Origin: Trueperella pecoris
Lineage (GTDB): Bacteria > Actinomycetota > Actinomycetes > Actinomycetales > Actinomycetaceae
Direction of reading: 5' to 3'
Assembly (NCBI RefSeq): GCF_014926385.1
Contig: NZ_CP053291.1
Location: 2,046,001-2,110,000, forward strand
Length of the DNA: 64,000 bases
The notes beneath the pieces are model-generated. The model saw only the letters and a program-made list of their open reading frames with translations. It was not told the origin of the DNA and did not search any database. A program made the position numbers and the translations under genes. This document shows positions 44,063 to 51,600 of this stretch, piece by piece. The stretch's first letter is position 1. Each line of letters opens with the position of its first letter.

Positions 44063-44740
44063 CTAGACAGCGCCCTTGGCGGTGAGGTAGGTCAGCACGG
44101 CACGCACGCGGCGATTGTCTTCGCCCGGCGGCAGGCCGAGCTTGGTAAAAACATTGGCCACATGCTTAGAGACGGACGCGCCGGAAAGATAAAGCTCCTC
44201 GGCGATCTCCGCGTTCGACTTTCCCTGCGCCATCAGCTCGAGCACCTCCGACTCGCGCGGCGTGAGCGCATCCAGCGCGCTACCCTTCCCGCGCACGAGC
44301 CCCGCGGCCACCTCTGGGTCAACGACGACGCCGCCGCCCGCGACGATCGCCAGCGATTGCACAAAATCGGCCACGCGCGATACTCGCTCCTTGAGAAGGT
44401 AACCCAGGCCGCCGCGGTCGGCGCTCGGGGTCGCCGTCGAGCTGAAGAGGGCCGAGGCGTAGGCGGGCGCCACGTACTGGCTCAGGACCATGACGGACAG
44501 GCCGGGGAATTCGCCGCGCAGCTCAGCGGCCACGCGCAGCCCGTCGTCGGTCATCGTGGGCGGCATGCGCACGTCGGTCACCAGCACGTCAATCGCATCA
44601 TCGGCCATCAGCTCGCGCACGGCGCTCATGGTGGAAGGCGCGTCGGAAGTTTGGCCCACCACCTCGTGGCCCACGCGTTCGAGAATGCCGGCCAGGCCCT
44701 CGCGCACCAGCGTGGCGTCGTCGGCTAGGAAAATCTTCAT
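44063..44740 (-). CDS. NarL/LuxR-family response regulator
   Basis: The 225-residue protein has an N-terminal receiver domain with acidic pair ADD at residues 6-8, phospho-acceptor Asp in VLVTDVRMPP near residue 56 and Lys in YLLKERVS. A LuxR helix-turn-helix follows from residue 160 (LTPRESEVLELMAQGKSNAEIA). It overlaps the histidine kinase by 4 nt. With the divergent ABC exporter at 45568-47684 it probably forms a sensing and export module, for example against antimicrobial peptides; this is inference from context. Confidence 0.92.
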   Translation of the reverse strand: MKIFLADDATLVREGLAGILERVGHEVVGQTSDAPSTMSAVRELMADDAIDVLVTDVRMPPTMTDDGLRVAAELRGEFPGLSVMVLSQYVAPAYASALFSSTATPSADRGGLGYLLKERVSRVADFVQSLAIVAGGGVVVDPEVAAGLVRGKGSALDALTPRESEVLELMAQGKSNAEIAEELYLSGASVSKHVANVFTKLGLPPGEDNRRVRAVLTYLTAKGAV

Positions 44741-45456
44741 CCGTGCCCCTTTGCGATCGCTGTTTCGCCCCTGCGCAAAAGGAGCGGAATTGTTCCGACG
44801 ACGGCGGTCGGGCCGCCTACCGGCGAGTTGACCGTAAGGTTGCCGCCAAATGCAGCGAGCCGCTCGCGCAAGCCCGCAAGTCCGCGGCCCGGCTTGATCT
44901 CGGCCCCGCCCGGGCCGTCATCCACCACCGACACCTTCAGGTCAGTATCCGCCGCGAGCAGGAGGGTCACGCGCGAACCGGGGGCATACTTGGCCACGTT
45001 GGTCAGCGCCTCGGAGGCCATGAAGTAGGCGGCCGCCATCACACCCTCCGGCATGTCAGGCAGCGGGTGGGGAACGATAACTCGCACCGGGGTCGCACAA
45101 CGCTCTGCCGCGCTACGCACAGCCCGCTCCAAGCCAAGGTCGGAGAGCACCTTGGGGTGGATCTCGTTGACCGTCTCGCGAAGCGCCTTGAGCGCCGCCT
45201 CGTTCATGGCCAGCGCCCGGGAAAGCACGCCGGGCAGGTCCGCGAGCGCCTCGGGTAGGCCCTCGGCGGCCGCCATGTCCACCAAGAATTGTGCCTCGCC
45301 GATCGCCATGCCGGAGGCGACGAGGTGCTGCTGAGCGCCATCGTGAAGGTTGCGCTCAATACGGCGTCGTTCAATTTCGAACGCCGAGACGATCTCGCGG
45401 CGCGAATCGGTCAGCTGGGCGATTTCGCGGGCGATGTTCTTCCTGAACCTCAACAT
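44737..45456 (-). CDS. Short NarL-type sensor histidine kinase without sensor domain
   Basis: The 239-residue protein contains only the HisKA_3 dimerisation helix, with phospho-acceptor His in ERRRIERNLHDGAQQHLV near residue 36, and an HATPase_c domain (EALTNVAKYAPGS, VVDDGPGG, RGLAGLRERLAAFGGNL). No membrane helix or sensor region precedes it. ATG 45456 is six bases after TAAGCT (45468-45463), consistent with a leaderless mRNA, so the short form looks genuine. It may be cytosolic and respond through a partner such as the adjacent ABC exporter. Confidence 0.88.
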   Translation of the reverse strand: MLRFRKNIAREIAQLTDSRREIVSAFEIERRRIERNLHDGAQQHLVASGMAIGEAQFLVDMAAAEGLPEALADLPGVLSRALAMNEAALKALRETVNEIHPKVLSDLGLERAVRSAAERCATPVRVIVPHPLPDMPEGVMAAAYFMASEALTNVAKYAPGSRVTLLLAADTDLKVSVVDDGPGGAEIKPGRGLAGLRERLAAFGGNLTVNSPVGGPTAVVGTIPLLLRRGETAIAKGHG

Positions 45457-45567
45457 GTCTCCAGCTTATCGGCTCGCCCAGCGGGCCCGACAGGTAGACC
45501 TAGCTCTACCCTAAAATCGGAAGTTGGCACCATGTTGCTCCGTGGCGAGAACCGATTGAATAGAAGC

Positions 45568-46290
45568 ATGAACGAAAGCACACTGTACGCAACACAATTA
45601 ATGAAGACCTACGGTTCTGTCCATGCGCTGGCCGGGGTAGACGTTCGCATCGACGCCGGCGAGCTAGTGGCGATCATGGGCCCCTCAGGCTCGGGCAAGT
45701 CCACGCTCTTGCACGTCCTGTCCGGCATCCTCGTCCCCGATTCGGGGCAGGTCAACCTCGGGCAGGTCACCGTCACCTCGTTGAACGACGCCGCCCGCTC
45801 GCGCCTACGGCGCGAGCGCTTCGGTTTCGTCTTTCAAGATGGCCAGCTCATCCCTGAACTGACTGCGCGCGAAAACGTTGCATTGCCGCTGTTTGCCGCG
45901 GGCTCCCGCCGTGGAATTGCCCTGCGCAAAGCCGACGAGTGGCTTTACCGCCTCGGGGTGGGCGATCAGGCCAAGAAGCGTCCGGGCGAAATGTCCGGCG
46001 GCCAGGCCCAGCGCGTGGCGATCGCACGGTCCATGGTGGCCAACCCCGCCATCATTTTCGCTGACGAACCGACCGGCGCCCTCGACCAGGCCACCGGCCA
46101 CGAGGTCATGCAACTCCTGTCGACGACGGCCCGGATGAATGGCACGACGCTCGTCGTCGTCACCCATGACCTCAAGGTCGCCTCGTGGTGCGACCGCCTC
46201 GTGGAAATCCGCGACGGCCTGATCCACACCGACAGGCCGATGGCGCAGGTGTCGGGCGCGGAGGCAACGGGCGCGGAGGTGGCTTCATGA
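45568..46290 (+). CDS. ABC exporter ATP-binding protein (MacB/FtsE type)
   Basis: The 240-residue ATPase has Walker A GPSGSGKST near residue 40, Q-loop FGFVFQDGQLIPELTA, signature MSGGQAQRVAIARSM, Walker B IIFADEPTGALD and switch VVVTHD. It overlaps the FtsX-type permease gene by 4 nt. A short Ala/Glu tail follows residue 225. No good ribosome site precedes ATG 45568. It is divergent from the two-component system, which probably controls it. Confidence 0.92.
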   Translation: MNESTLYATQLMKTYGSVHALAGVDVRIDAGELVAIMGPSGSGKSTLLHVLSGILVPDSGQVNLGQVTVTSLNDAARSRLRRERFGFVFQDGQLIPELTARENVALPLFAAGSRRGIALRKADEWLYRLGVGDQAKKRPGEMSGGQAQRVAIARSMVANPAIIFADEPTGALDQATGHEVMQLLSTTARMNGTTLVVVTHDLKVASWCDRLVEIRDGLIHTDRPMAQVSGAEATGAEVAS

Positions 46291-47684
46291 ACACGCTTCA
46301 GATGGCGAGTCAGCTCGCCGTGTCGCGCATCCGTAACGCGCGCGGGCATGCCCTTCTGGACACGCTCGCAGTGGTCGCCTTTTCCGTGTCGTCGTGGCTA
46401 CTGCTCACGACGATGGGCGGGGTGTGGATGTTCTATGGGCGCAAGAGCAAACTCAGCGACATGCTGTACGAGGCCTATTCCATTCCTCGCATTGATACTC
46501 AAGCTCTCGGTGGAATATATATGTCGCTAGCCTTGCTTGCGCTCGCGTTACTCATCATTCCCCTTCTTTCACTCGGCTCCTCCGCCGCACGCCTGGGCGC
46601 GGGCGGGCGCGCCAAGCGCCTCGCCTCCCTGCGCCTGATTGGCCTGACCGCCGGGCAAATCAACATCATGACCCTCGTCGAGACGATGATTCAGGCCCTC
46701 GTCGGCTTCGTGATCGGGCTAGCCCTGTACCTGGTCAGCCTCGGCGGCTGGTCCCAGATCACCTTCACCACACTCAACATTCGCGTGGGCGAAATGATGC
46801 TCCCTTGGTGGGGATTCCTTATCGCCCTTGGGCTCATCATCCTGATCACGTTTGGCTCAACGCTCGTCGGCTTGCGCCGGGTCGCGATATCACCACTGGG
46901 CGTGGCTCGCCGCGAGAGCCCTCAAGCACTTAGGTATTGGCGCGTCATCGGCATCGTCGTCGTATTGCCGGCGCTCATCATCTCCATGAAGAACCTCAAC
47001 GGACAGAGCACAGCGGGAAATGTCATCATCCCAAGCCTCTTCTTCATGATGTTCTTCCTCACCATATCCATCGCTGGCCCACTGTTCATTCAGATGGCCA
47101 CACGCCCAGCTATTCGTACGTCTAGCTCCGCCAAGCTCCTGGGAGCGCGGCGAGTGCTTGACGATCCGCGTGCCGCTTGGCGAAACGTCTCTGCCATTTC
47201 GCTCATGGCGCTCATGGCCTCAGTGGTCGTCTTTGGGCTTTCGATTGCCCTCTCCGGGAACTCACCGGATCCGACAATTGCCAATCTCCGCCTCGTGCTC
47301 GTCTCCGACATCACGAAGGGCGTCACGATCGCACTCGCCTTCGCCCTGATCCTCGGCGCGACCTCCACGCTCATCCACCAGGCATCCGACGTCTTCGACC
47401 GCGCCGACGAGTCCCTCGCCCTGACCAAGATGGGCCTCCCGCGTGGCGTGCTCCTCAAGGCACGTCTGTGGCAGGTAATCCCGCCTCTCCTTCTCATGCT
47501 CGGCGTGACAATCGGCCTCGGCGCCATCCTTGGCCTGGCTGCCGGAAACACGCCAAATTCGCAGAATTACTCGATGCTCATGTGGGTTGTGGGGGTGGGC
47601 TTCACGTTGACCGTCGCGGCCGTCGTCGCCACGGTTCCCATCCAGTCGATGGTTCTCTCACGGAACTCGCGCAAGAACGACTAG
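46287..47684 (+). CDS. FtsX-type ABC exporter permease
   Basis: The 465-residue membrane protein has about ten predicted helices in two halves, each with an FtsX-like unit. The first half includes YMSLALLALALLIIPLLSLG and MTLVETMIQALVGFVIGLAL, and the second WRNVSAISLMALMASVVVFG and a closing pair near the C-terminus. It is the partner of the ATPase before it (ATGA overlap). No large extracellular domain is present, unlike MacB or BceB. The substrate is unknown; antimicrobial peptides or lipids are common for this group. Confidence 0.88.
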   Translation: MNTLQMASQLAVSRIRNARGHALLDTLAVVAFSVSSWLLLTTMGGVWMFYGRKSKLSDMLYEAYSIPRIDTQALGGIYMSLALLALALLIIPLLSLGSSAARLGAGGRAKRLASLRLIGLTAGQINIMTLVETMIQALVGFVIGLALYLVSLGGWSQITFTTLNIRVGEMMLPWWGFLIALGLIILITFGSTLVGLRRVAISPLGVARRESPQALRYWRVIGIVVVLPALIISMKNLNGQSTAGNVIIPSLFFMMFFLTISIAGPLFIQMATRPAIRTSSSAKLLGARRVLDDPRAAWRNVSAISLMALMASVVVFGLSIALSGNSPDPTIANLRLVLVSDITKGVTIALAFALILGATSTLIHQASDVFDRADESLALTKMGLPRGVLLKARLWQVIPPLLLMLGVTIGLGAILGLAAGNTPNSQNYSMLMWVVGVGFTLTVAAVVATVPIQSMVLSRNSRKND

Positions 47685-47732
47685 GGAGCTACATCTTCGA
47701 GCGTCGCCTTTTCTTGCTTGTCCCCAGCCTCA

Positions 47733-47797
47733 TGGCTAAACGACGTTTCTCAGCCCTAAGTTCCCCGATCGCAAGGCCAAGAAACGTCGTTTAGCCA
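47733..47797. repeat. Large perfect inverted repeat between exporter and fusion gene
   Basis: An 18-bp arm TGGCTAAACGACGTTTCT (47733-47750) is repeated in inverse at 47780-47797 without mismatch, loop 29 nt. It lies 48 bp after the permease stop and 8 bp before a TAAAAT -10 box. It may terminate the exporter operon, serve as a binding site, or be a mobile-element trace. Part of the arm (GAAACGTCGTT) recurs at 48504-48514. Confidence 0.75.
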
Positions 47798-47804
47798 CAA
47801 GACA

Positions 47805-47836
47805 TAAAATGCGCGTTTACCATGACAGTTGTCATG
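47805..47836 (+). promoter_or_regulatory. Promoter and dyad operator of the fusion gene
   Basis: TAAAAT at 47805-47810 is a likely -10 box. CATGACA-GT-TGTCATG at 47821-47836 follows, a 7-bp dyad just past the expected transcription start. Its core GACA-GT-TGTC resembles the core GACA-CT-TGTC of the dyad at 48463-48476 after the gene. A LuxR-type regulator is a reasonable binder. Confidence 0.5.
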
Positions 47837-47893
47837 CCCAGATCCGGGCAAACGGCACTTCCGCTCCCGCCCCCACCGCAGCAGACTGGTGGC

Positions 47894-48412
47894 ATGAACG
47901 CAATAGCAGCCCGCGGGCTCACGAAAAGATTCGGCCAGCTCAACGCTGTGGCTGGCATTGATCTCACGATCGGCGTCGGCGAGGTGGTCGCCCTCCTCGG
48001 GCCCAACGGAGCCGGGAAGACCACCGCGCTGGACATGATCCTCGGTCTGACCACCTTCGGACGGCCGGGCTACCTCCAGCGGGCGCTCCAAGCGGGTGCA
48101 CGCGGGTTCGTCGTCAAAGAGACCCCCGCAGAGCAGCTGGCGGACGTTGTGCGGGCCGTTCATGCTGGTCAACGCGTTATTGATCCGGCGCTCGCCACCG
48201 AAGCCCTCTTCTCTGGGGCAAACCCGCTCACCGAGCGCGAACGGGAGATCCTGCGGCTGGCCCTCGACGGCGGCACGGTCGCCGATATCGCCGCACGGGT
48301 CTACCTATCGGAGGGGACCGTGCGCAACCACCTGTCGGCGGCGATTGGCAAGATGGGCGTGCGGACTCGCGCCGAGGCAGCACGCGCCGCCCGCGACCTT
48401 GGGTGGCTCTAG
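47894..48412 (+). CDS. In-frame fusion of an ABC ATPase N-terminus to a response-regulator C-terminus
   Basis: Residues 1-54 are the start of an ABC exporter ATPase (MNAIAARGLTKRFGQLNAVA, Walker A GPNGAGKT at residues 37-44). Residues from about 52 onward are the last third of a NarL-type receiver (LTTFGRPGYLQRALQAGA, GFVVKE with the conserved Lys) and a complete LuxR helix-turn-helix (residues 111-165). The frame is intact across the join at 48044-48055. Missing are Q-loop, signature, Walker B and the receiver's phospho-acceptor Asp. A deletion in an operon ordered ATPase, permease, kinase, regulator would produce exactly this. ATG 47894 follows GGTGG; ATG 47822 in the same frame is an alternative start. 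If expressed, it could bind DNA without phosphorylation. Confidence 0.85.
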   Translation: MNAIAARGLTKRFGQLNAVAGIDLTIGVGEVVALLGPNGAGKTTALDMILGLTTFGRPGYLQRALQAGARGFVVKETPAEQLADVVRAVHAGQRVIDPALATEALFSGANPLTEREREILRLALDGGTVADIAARVYLSEGTVRNHLSAAIGKMGVRTRAEAARAARDLGWL

Positions 48413-48462
48413 CCCGGTCGTGGGTTTCCCAGTCCGGGATTTTCCCCGATCATCAGCACCTT

Positions 48463-48476
48463 CCGACACTTGTCGG
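48463..48476. promoter_or_regulatory. Dyad CCGACA-CT-TGTCGG downstream of the fusion gene
   Basis: This 14-bp dyad has a core GACA-CT-TGTC like the one before the fusion gene. It is enclosed by a wider inverted repeat of GGGATTTtC (48436-48444) and GAAATCCC (48481-48488). It could be a second operator or part of a terminator. Confidence 0.4.
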
Positions 48477-48514
48477 CACTGAAATCCCTGGTTATAGGGG
48501 CGGGAAACGTCGTT

Positions 48515-48579
48515 AAGTACTGACGATTAATATTGGCCGTAAATTTCGGTCTCAAGTACTAGCCTTAAGCATCGGCCAT
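48515..48579. repeat. Imperfect direct repeat before hrpA
   Basis: AAGTACT...TTAA-AT-GGCC occurs at 48515-48538 and again at 48554-48577, 39 bp apart. Each contains the palindrome AGTACT. The function is unknown; the hrpA promoter must lie nearby. Confidence 0.4.
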
Positions 48580-48637
48580 GCGGGCATACAGAACGCTGAC
48601 AACCCAAGACCTAGCACGCGTGGCACAATGGTAGGCG

Positions 48638-51600
48638 ATGACGACGAACGAAAACCCGGCCAAACACACCAAACGCACGCCCGGCACCAGGCGCACCAAG
48701 CGCACCCCGCGCGGCCCGCGACCCTTCACCCCCGCCGAACTCCAGGCCCGCCGCGACGCCGTACCCACCATCACCTACCCCGCCCAGCTGCCGGTATCGG
48801 CGCGCAAAGCTGACATCGCCGCGGCAATCGAGCACAACCAGGTCGTGATCCTCGCCGGCGAAACCGGCTCCGGAAAGACCACCCAGTTGCCCAAGATCTG
48901 CCTCGAACTTGGCCGCGGAATCACCGGCATGATCGGCCACACCCAGCCGCGCCGTATCGCCGCACGCTCGGTGGCGGACCGCATCTGCGAAGAACTCGGC
49001 GTGCAACTCGGAGACGCGATCGGCTACCAGGTTCGCTTCACCGAGCAGGTCTCACGCACCACCCTCGTCAAACTCATGACCGACGGCATCCTCCTTGCCG
49101 AAACCCAATCTGACCCCGAGCTACGCAAATACGACACGATCATCATCGACGAAGCTCACGAGCGCTCCCTCAACATCGACTTCCTCCTCGGCTACCTCGC
49201 CAACCTCCTCCCCCGCCGCCCCGACCTCAAAGTCATCATCACCTCCGCCACCATCGACTCCCAGCGCTTCGCCGAACACTTCGGGCGCCACATGTACGGC
49301 GGTTTCCCCGGCAACGAAGCCCCCATCATCGAGGTCTCCGGACGCACCTACCCCGTCGAGATCCGCTATCGCCCGCTCTACGACGCCGCACCCGCCGCAG
49401 ACTTGGACCGGGCCGACGTTCGGGAAAAGCTCTCCCGCGAGGAGGCGCACGACCAGATCAGCGGTATCATTGACGCCGCCCACGAGCTCATGGCCGAGGG
49501 CCCTGGCGACATCCTCGTCTTCCTCTCCGGCGAAGGAGAAATCCGCGACACGGCGAAGGCGTTCGCCGAAGAACTCGGAAACCGGTACATCGAGCCCGGT
49601 GGCCAATCCTCCGTGCCCGGCGCGGTTGAGGTCCTGACACTGTTCGCGCGCCTCTCGGGCGCCGAGCAACGGCGCATCTTTCAGTCCCACCGCCACCGCC
49701 GCATTATCCTCGCCACGAACATCGCCGAAACTTCGCTCACCGTGCCAGGAATCCGGTACGTCATTGACCCGGGAACGGCCCGAATCTCGCGCTATTCCAA
49801 CAAAACAAAGGTGCAGCGCCTCCCCATCGAGCCGATCTCGCAGGCCTCGGCCAACCAGCGCTCCGGCCGTTCGGGCCGTGTCCAGGACGGTATCGCCATC
49901 CGCCTATACTCCGAAGAAGACTTCACTGCCCGCCCCGAGTTCACCGAGCCAGAGATTCAACGAACCTCGCTCGCCTCCGTCATCTTGCAGATGGCATCCA
50001 TGAACCTGGGCTCAGTTGAAGAATTTCCCTTCATCGATCCGCCGGACATGCGGGCCGTGCGCGCAGGCATCCAGCTCCTCGAGGAGATCGGCGCCCTCGC
50101 CCCCATGTCGGCAACTGCCAAAGGCACGGCCATCGGCTCTGGCACCCACCTACTCACCGACGTCGGCCGCACGCTCTCCCGCCTGCCCATCGACCCCCGC
50201 CTCGGGCGTATGCTGCTGTCCGCCTCCGAGCAGGGCTGCGCAGGCGAGGTCCTCGTGCTGGTCGCTGCCATGTCCGTCCAAGACGTCCGCGAGCGCCCCG
50301 CCGAGTTCAAGGCGCAGGCAGACCAGCTACACGCTCGCTTTACCGACCGAACCTCCGACTTCCTTGCCTATCTCAACCTGTGGCGTTACCTGCGCACGCA
50401 GCAACGCGAGCTGTCTGGCTCGGCCTTCCGGCGCACGTGCCGGGCCGAATACCTTAACTGGTTGCGCTTCCGCGAGTGGCAAGACGTCGTCGTACAACTT
50501 CGCGAGATGGCGCGCCCGCTGGGCATGGACATCACTCCCATCACGCTCCCCACCCGCGCCGCGCTCGCCCGGGCGGCCGCGGAGGACAAGGACAACTCGC
50601 ACAACCAAGATGTGGCGCGGGCCGTCAAGGAGCTCAGCCAATCAGCCGACACCCCGGCGGCCGACCAGATCCACCGCTCCATGCTCGTCGGGCTCCTGTC
50701 CAACCTCGGCTCATGGGACGAGCGGACGAAGGACTATCTAGGGGCGCGCGGCACCCGATTCGTCATATGGCCAGGCTCGGGCCTACACCGGCGTAACCCG
50801 AGTTGGGTGATGGCCGCCGAGCTCGTGGAAACCTCCCGGCTCTTCGCCCGCACGGCCGCCCAAATTAAGCCCGAATGGGTGGAGGAGGTGGGCGGCCACC
50901 TGGTGCGCAAGCAACACTCCGAACCGTTCTGGTCCGCCCGCGAGGGAGCCGCCATGGCTCATGAGAAGGTCACGCTCTACGGGCTGACCGTCATCGCCGA
51001 CCGCAAAGTTCTCCTATCCAAGGTGGGCACGCCCGCCGCTCGCGAGCTAGCCCGCGAGCTCTTCATTCGCCACGGCCTGGTGGAAAACCAGTGGCGCGCT
51101 CACCACGCCTTCATCAAACACAATGCGAAGACAATCGAGGAGGCTCAGGAGGTCGAGCAGCGTCTGCGCCAGGTCGGCCTGGTGGCCGATGAGGCCGCCC
51201 GTTTCACATTCTTCGACGAACGTATCCCGGCGAACATCGTCTCCGGGCGCCACTTCGATTCGTGGTGGAAGCGGGAGCGTCACAAGAATCCCGAGCTGTT
51301 GAACTTCACCCGCGAGTTCCTTCTCGGTCAGACCTCTGCCTCCGATACCGACTTCCCCGACGAGTGGGTTCAGGGCGACATCACTTTGCCGATCACCTAC
51401 CATTACTCGCCCGGCAAGCACGCCGACGGCCTCGCCATCGACGTCCCCGTCACGCTCCTGCCCCAGCTTACCGACGAGGGCTTCGACTGGCTCGTTCCTG
51501 GCATGCTCCCCGAGCTCGTCGTCGCCACGATCCGCGCCTTACCCAAGGTTGTGCGACGCAACCTTGTTCCCGCCCCCGACGTCGCGCGCGATATCCTCGC

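Follow-up and report, generated by a model that had tools for sequence, protein, structure and literature searches.

A LuxR-type DNA-binding domain joined in frame to the start of an ABC exporter ATPase in Trueperella: a probable scar of operon deletion

GerE is a stand-alone LuxR-type helix-turn-helix (HTH) protein and belongs to an established family, and the ragABKR genes of S. coelicolor form an actinobacterial operon in which ATPase, permease, kinase and regulator follow one another. Literature searches on ragABKR/RagR and RagK gave nothing relevant by title among the matches listed, and searches on in-frame fusions of a regulator and a transporter and on linearmycin-type systems found nothing. 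HTH domains freed from their receivers have been described for NarL, whose output domain was crystallised as a dimer on a site of the 7-2-7 type (PMC4549865); in the available part of that report, the isolated domain represses one promoter and cannot activate another, and part of the NarL linker weakens its binding. The isolated C-domain of DevR, according to the available part of its description, binds no site other than the high-affinity one and is a feeble activator (PMC3029386).

In a 64,000-nucleotide stretch of Trueperella DNA (hereafter the window), a single open reading frame (ORF) combines the start of an ABC exporter ATPase with the end of a response regulator. The gene was compared within a set of nine Trueperella genomes, one per species, comprising the window's own genome (G000) and eight others (G001-G008), of which G006 provided the closest match at this locus. 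A deletion of about 2.8 kb within an operon, leaving a scar protein with residual regulatory potential, is the probable explanation of this gene.

Make-up of the hybrid gene

The hybrid ORF occupies 47894-48412 on the forward strand and encodes 172 residues plus a stop, as delimited by ORF scanning, Pfam and the genus comparison. The frame is open from an ATG at 47822, the start at 47894 was assigned by homology, and the stop lies at 48412. The upstream in-frame ATG (47822) is located inside a palindrome; reading through it lengthens the ORF by 24 codons. About 53 residues at the N-terminus (47894-48054, forward strand) derive from an ABC exporter ATPase and share 95% amino acid identity with the ATPase of G006. 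They contain the Walker A motif GPNGAGKT (residues 36-43; 47999-48022, forward strand), intact by column counts in 74 relatives. With a Pfam threshold of E ≤ 0.001, positions 3-36 of the 137 in the ABC_tran profile were the only part matched, at residues 21-54 (E 1.4e-8). The hybrid cannot be a working ATPase because it lacks the remainder of the nucleotide-binding domain.

The other part, ~120 residues, corresponds to the C-terminal end of a NarL/DesR-type response regulator. It starts with what is left of the receiver domain and the linker (48053-48223, forward strand), in which no Response_reg match was obtained at the same Pfam threshold, and ends in a complete LuxR/GerE HTH domain (48224-48391, forward strand) recognised by Pfam (GerE/LuxR profile positions 2-57 of 57 at residues 111-166, E 8.2e-15), predicted structure and conserved columns. 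The ORF, the Pfam matches and the split matches in relatives thus all agree with the original prediction of an in-frame ATPase-LuxR hybrid. That prediction had also held that the phospho-acceptor Asp was missing, and indeed Asp10 and Asp55, found in the regulators of 76 of 76 further loci, as well as Asp9 (74 of 76), fall in the deleted part.

The DNA-binding part is well preserved. Among regulator-part columns conserved in at least 73 of the 76 relatives, 62 of 66 are kept, and three of the four exceptional columns are common to the hybrid and the intact G006 regulator; a further 25 conserved columns were lost with the receiver. The structure model of the hybrid (mean pLDDT 69.8, pTM 0.44) reached pLDDT values of 85-95 in the HTH blocks and block means of 51-63 over residues 31-110, and the first ~110 residues probably form no proper domain. 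The full-length hybrid matched one place in its own genome, which is a single contig of 2,282,684 bp rated 100% complete. When plasmids were searched with the hybrid DNA, none of 99 records covered 80% or more of it, the best among the matches listed covering 72%.

The parent operon and its deletion

In five of the eight other Trueperella genomes (G001-G004 and G006), the hybrid splits into two matches: residues from 1 onwards align with the beginning of a gene for an ABC ATPase, and those from 50 onwards with the end of a response regulator gene that follows about 3 kb downstream on the same strand. In G007 the regulator was not seen, the contig ending there, and G008 gave distant matches only. 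The separate comparison of the two halves that had been proposed thereby led to the first and last genes of one operon; in G006, residues 1-55 share 95% of their amino acids with the ATPase start and residues 50-172 share 96% with the regulator end. At this place G006 (locus L111) carries the intact ATPase-permease-kinase-regulator operon that had been predicted for relatives, ending at hrpA, with the same flanks as in the window, namely an FtsX operon upstream and hrpA downstream. The G006 permease resembles ABC2_membrane_3 (E 1.3e-5, short of the cut-off for that family), and a HisKA_3 kinase lies between permease and regulator. The best NCBIfam models were DrrA for the ATPase and MadR for the regulator, both below cut-off, and the closest solved structure by sequence to the intact regulator was B. 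subtilis DesR (4LDZ). Both end genes are also present at similar spacing in G001-G004.

Alignment of the window with L111 runs on the left up to 48054 (6052 in L111) and on the right from 48050 (8880 in L111), with 2,832 bp missing in between. The window hence equals the G006 locus minus 2,832 bp, as anticipated from the proposal that a deletion had removed permease and kinase; the gene of the cognate histidine kinase sits in this segment and is absent from the hybrid's operon. The sole counterpart of the missing segment in G000 was a 49-bp match of 86% at 886373, beside an ABC-type match, and no permease match was detected in the G000 genome. The permease occurs in six of the nine genus genomes and was not found in G000, G005 and G008. 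With an intact operon in relatives at the same locus and the missing segment absent from the genome, it is strongly supported by sequence comparison that the hybrid arose by deletion in a four-gene operon, whereby the start of the first gene was fused to the end of the last. An assembly artefact collapsing 2.8 kb is highly improbable, given a one-contig genome rated 100% complete, parent alleles in G006 with only short homology at the join, and no permease match left in the genome.

A wider search returned 80 loci, of which 76 (L031-L106; L031, from T. bernardiae, and G003 are one and the same genome) were examined and four (L107-L110), matched at one end only or remote, were left out. The order ATPase-permease-kinase-regulator was found in 74 of the 76; in the other two, L097 and L104, neither an ATPase nor a permease was detected close to the regulator. 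No ATPase-LuxR fusion was seen among the 76, nor hence a relative with the same full-length architecture, which had been named as one case that would refute the deletion. That the fusion is an old, shared architecture is accordingly a near-negligible prospect, since regulators with Asp10 and Asp55 occur in all these loci and the two halves match separate genes in five genus relatives.

The deletion junction CTGACCACC lies at 48047-48055 (forward strand). At the corresponding places, the G006 ATPase reads CTGACCACG and the G006 regulator reads I-V-T-T-F-G, with the DNA GTCACGACATTC / GTCACGACA; the regulator alleles of other species read GTCACAACA in G004, GTGACCACC in G002, and GTGACCACG in G001 and G003. 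The proposed leucine-threonine-threonine match of both parents at the join was borne out in part: the G006 regulator provides a shorter match, but the alleles of G001-G003 (GTGACCACS) have TGACCAC in common with the G006 ATPase. With an ancestral regulator allele like those of G001-G003, a TGACCAC microhomology at the join would be plausible. Between the G006 parent genes, 48 of 78 left-maximal matches of at least 7 bp, and 141 of 245 of at least 6 bp, would keep the frame; an in-frame fusion thus needs no selection.

The identity of the locus to G006 is mosaic. It amounts to 74% in the FtsX operon, 98% (97.9%) over 47820-48054, 88% over 48055-48174, 93% over 48175-48234, and 95-100% from there to about 49200, beyond which the remaining hrpA gene is mostly 69-91% identical with one bin at 55% (200-column bins). 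Outside the dip to 88% at 48055-48234, the tract 47820-49200 is 94-100% identical per bin, and it was probably exchanged as a short tract between the two Trueperella lineages by recombination. Since the window and G006 are 94-100% identical over most of the tract around the join, the deletion may be recent. The join itself could have been made during recombination with incoming G006-like DNA rather than by deletion within one resident operon, and the switch of identity at the junction, from 98% on the left to 88% just to the right, fits this course. However, gene conversion of the flanks, whether before or after a resident deletion, produces an identical pattern, and the incoming-DNA origin is regarded as doubtful. 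Next to the hybrid, at 44063-47684 of the window, an intact neighbouring locus comprises genes for a receiver-LuxR regulator and a HisKA_3 kinase and, running divergently from these, genes for an ABC ATPase and an FtsX-type permease.

The operon was also lost in G005. In this genome (L116 4523-4888), the FtsX gene is directly followed by the last ~53 regulator codons, an HTH stub in a frame that differs from that of FtsX, and TGAC-N4-GTCA was not found in the 12 kb around the locus. To judge from this arrangement, G005 lost the same operon separately from G000; the operon would therefore be dispensable in the genus, which favours reading the hybrid as a scar.

Upstream palindrome and hairpin

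The 7-2-7 palindrome CATGACA-GT-TGTCATG at 47821-47836 precedes the hybrid gene. Of the 74 four-gene loci, 71 have its core, TGAC-N4-GTCA, in the 250 bp that precede the ATPase, the three without it there being L039, L044 and L105. In total, it occurs 100 times in the 76 loci (1.17 Mb), as against four times for a scrambled palindrome of equal make-up. An alignment was made of 71 sites chosen by distance from the regulator, a set nearly identical to the upstream 71 (L104 replaces L103); in these, the fifth place is A or G, the eighth is T in 65, and TG follows the site in most. TGAC is preceded by C in 38 sites and by A in 27, and the full 7-2-7 form is therefore not universal. The genus form CATGAC-N4-GTCATG is present in G001-G004, G006 departs from it by one change, G007 has TGACGAGTGTCA before the ATPase, and the window's copy is perfect. 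Such footprinting across loci makes the palindrome a probable operator of the lost two-component regulator. As to the claim that the hybrid keeps its own promoter and palindromes, this palindrome is conserved, whereas a scan of 47500-48700 found no sigma-70-type promoter (terminator-like sites numbered 2 against 1.3 expected in the same region). The idea of a kept promoter hence rests on the conserved upstream region, because the promoter scan found none.

The large palindromes to which the same claim referred, at 47733-47797, fared less well, their sequence not being conserved at the locus in G001-G004. Lying between FtsX and the hybrid, they form a long hairpin with 23-nt arms carrying GAAACGTCGTT, a z-score of -9.8 and no T-run; the G006 counterpart (L111 5690-5770) has a z-score of -11.5, and the arms differ in sequence between the two genomes yet still pair. 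The sequence RAAACGWCGTTW occurs three times in the G000 genome, always at the hybrid locus (two copies in the hairpin arms and one at 48504-48515), with one occurrence for the reversed control, and GRAACGTCGTTW occurs in five of the nine genus genomes and at the hybrid locus only in G000 and G006. The GAAACGTCGTT motif was rejected as an operator, its presence at the locus being confined to G000 and G006. The hairpin region (116 bp) does not constitute a repeat family, and the hairpin is probably not part of the control of the hybrid.

In the 2.28-Mb genome there are just two copies of the perfect form CATGACA-NN-TGTCATG. The second, at G000:C1:668469-668484 (L118 4470-4485), overlaps the start codon of an ORF of 258 aa for which no Pfam family was found at E ≤ 0.001 (EcsC, E 0.23). 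This ORF was matched in one of the eight other genus genomes (G007, 43%), leaving seven of the nine without a match, and G006 has its second site at another gene. A third, looser site of the form CATGAC-N4-GTCATG, CATGACGAGCGTCATG, is situated at G000:C1:1615764 inside a coding ORF of 422 aa. With one mismatch allowed, the pattern was found at no fewer than 16 places in the G000 genome, compared with 3 for the control; the sites inspected individually were the exact matches. The operator-like sites inspected away from the locus lacked conservation or fell within coding sequence.

Scar or regulator, and comparison with known systems

From these comparisons, a ~2.8 kb deletion is proposed to have occurred inside a Trueperella ABC-exporter/two-component operon composed of an ATPase, an ABC-2-like permease, a HisKA_3 kinase and a DesR/NarL-type regulator, by which about codon 53 of the ATPase was joined in frame to about codon 84 of the regulator. 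Transporter, sensor and phospho-acceptor have been lost, as the comparison shows, and the HTH domain and the candidate operator retained. The product would be a scar protein. Independently of any signal, its HTH may bind to the 7-2-7 palindrome that precedes the hybrid gene, and weak repression would be likelier than activation, as for the isolated NarL output domain. The net effect would be the loss of the exporter and a residual, perhaps self-regulating, ORF, because the operon, the only target seen conserved across species, is gone. The hybrid is most likely a scar and, at best, would weakly repress its own promoter in a signal-independent manner.

Some features tell against a mere scar. 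The open ORF, the perfect palindrome and the intact HTH need not be found in an old scar, but this one may be young; and the second perfect site at G000:C1:668469 makes another target possible. It is conceivable, if rather unlikely, that the hybrid is a new regulator, that is, a selected signal-independent DNA-binding protein acting on its own promoter and perhaps on this second gene; HTH and palindrome are both intact, and the perfect pattern is restricted to two places. Nevertheless, the second site is not conserved, its gene is without a match in seven of the nine genus genomes and only 43% identical in G007, the second site of G006 stands at a different gene, and the third, looser site is inside a coding ORF. 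In addition, the ATPase part differs from G006 by two nonsynonymous and no synonymous changes in 53 codons, compared with three nonsynonymous and 18 synonymous in the 120 codons of the regulator part and two and 13, respectively, in the first 200 codons of hrpA. These small numbers are a weak hint that the ATPase part is under relaxed constraint and free to change. A hybrid with a regulon of its own is possible, if unsupported. Distinctly unlikely, too, is a deletion caught early, through which a phosphorylation-gated regulator would have become a signal-independent orphan acting on its old operator, with one further perfect site in the genome.

The locus offers a natural gene fusion by operon deletion, accompanied by an intact sister locus, a separate loss and a probable operator, and makes it testable whether an accident-made, receiver-less LuxR HTH has regulatory activity. 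The conserved palindrome upstream of a widespread actinobacterial ATPase-permease-kinase-regulator operon is a useful by-product.

Compared with NarL/DesR-type LuxR response regulators, the hybrid is alike in its C-terminal half with a complete LuxR HTH, but it lacks most of the receiver and the phospho-acceptor, and its N-terminus comes from an ATPase. It likewise has a 7-2-7 palindrome upstream, the site type given for NarL in the available part of PMC4549865. To DrrA-like ABC exporter ATPases it is similar in the first ~53 residues with Walker A, and the rest is missing. The order of the genes in the lost operon is that of ragABKR, a likeness by gene order alone, and here two genes were lost and two were truncated and fused. 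The NarL output domain and the DevR C-domain, as far as their available descriptions go, share with the hybrid an HTH without a working receiver, although those were made in the laboratory. Unlike these isolated domains and GerE, the hybrid arose as a product of deletion, and its DNA-binding domain is preceded by about 100 partial residues.
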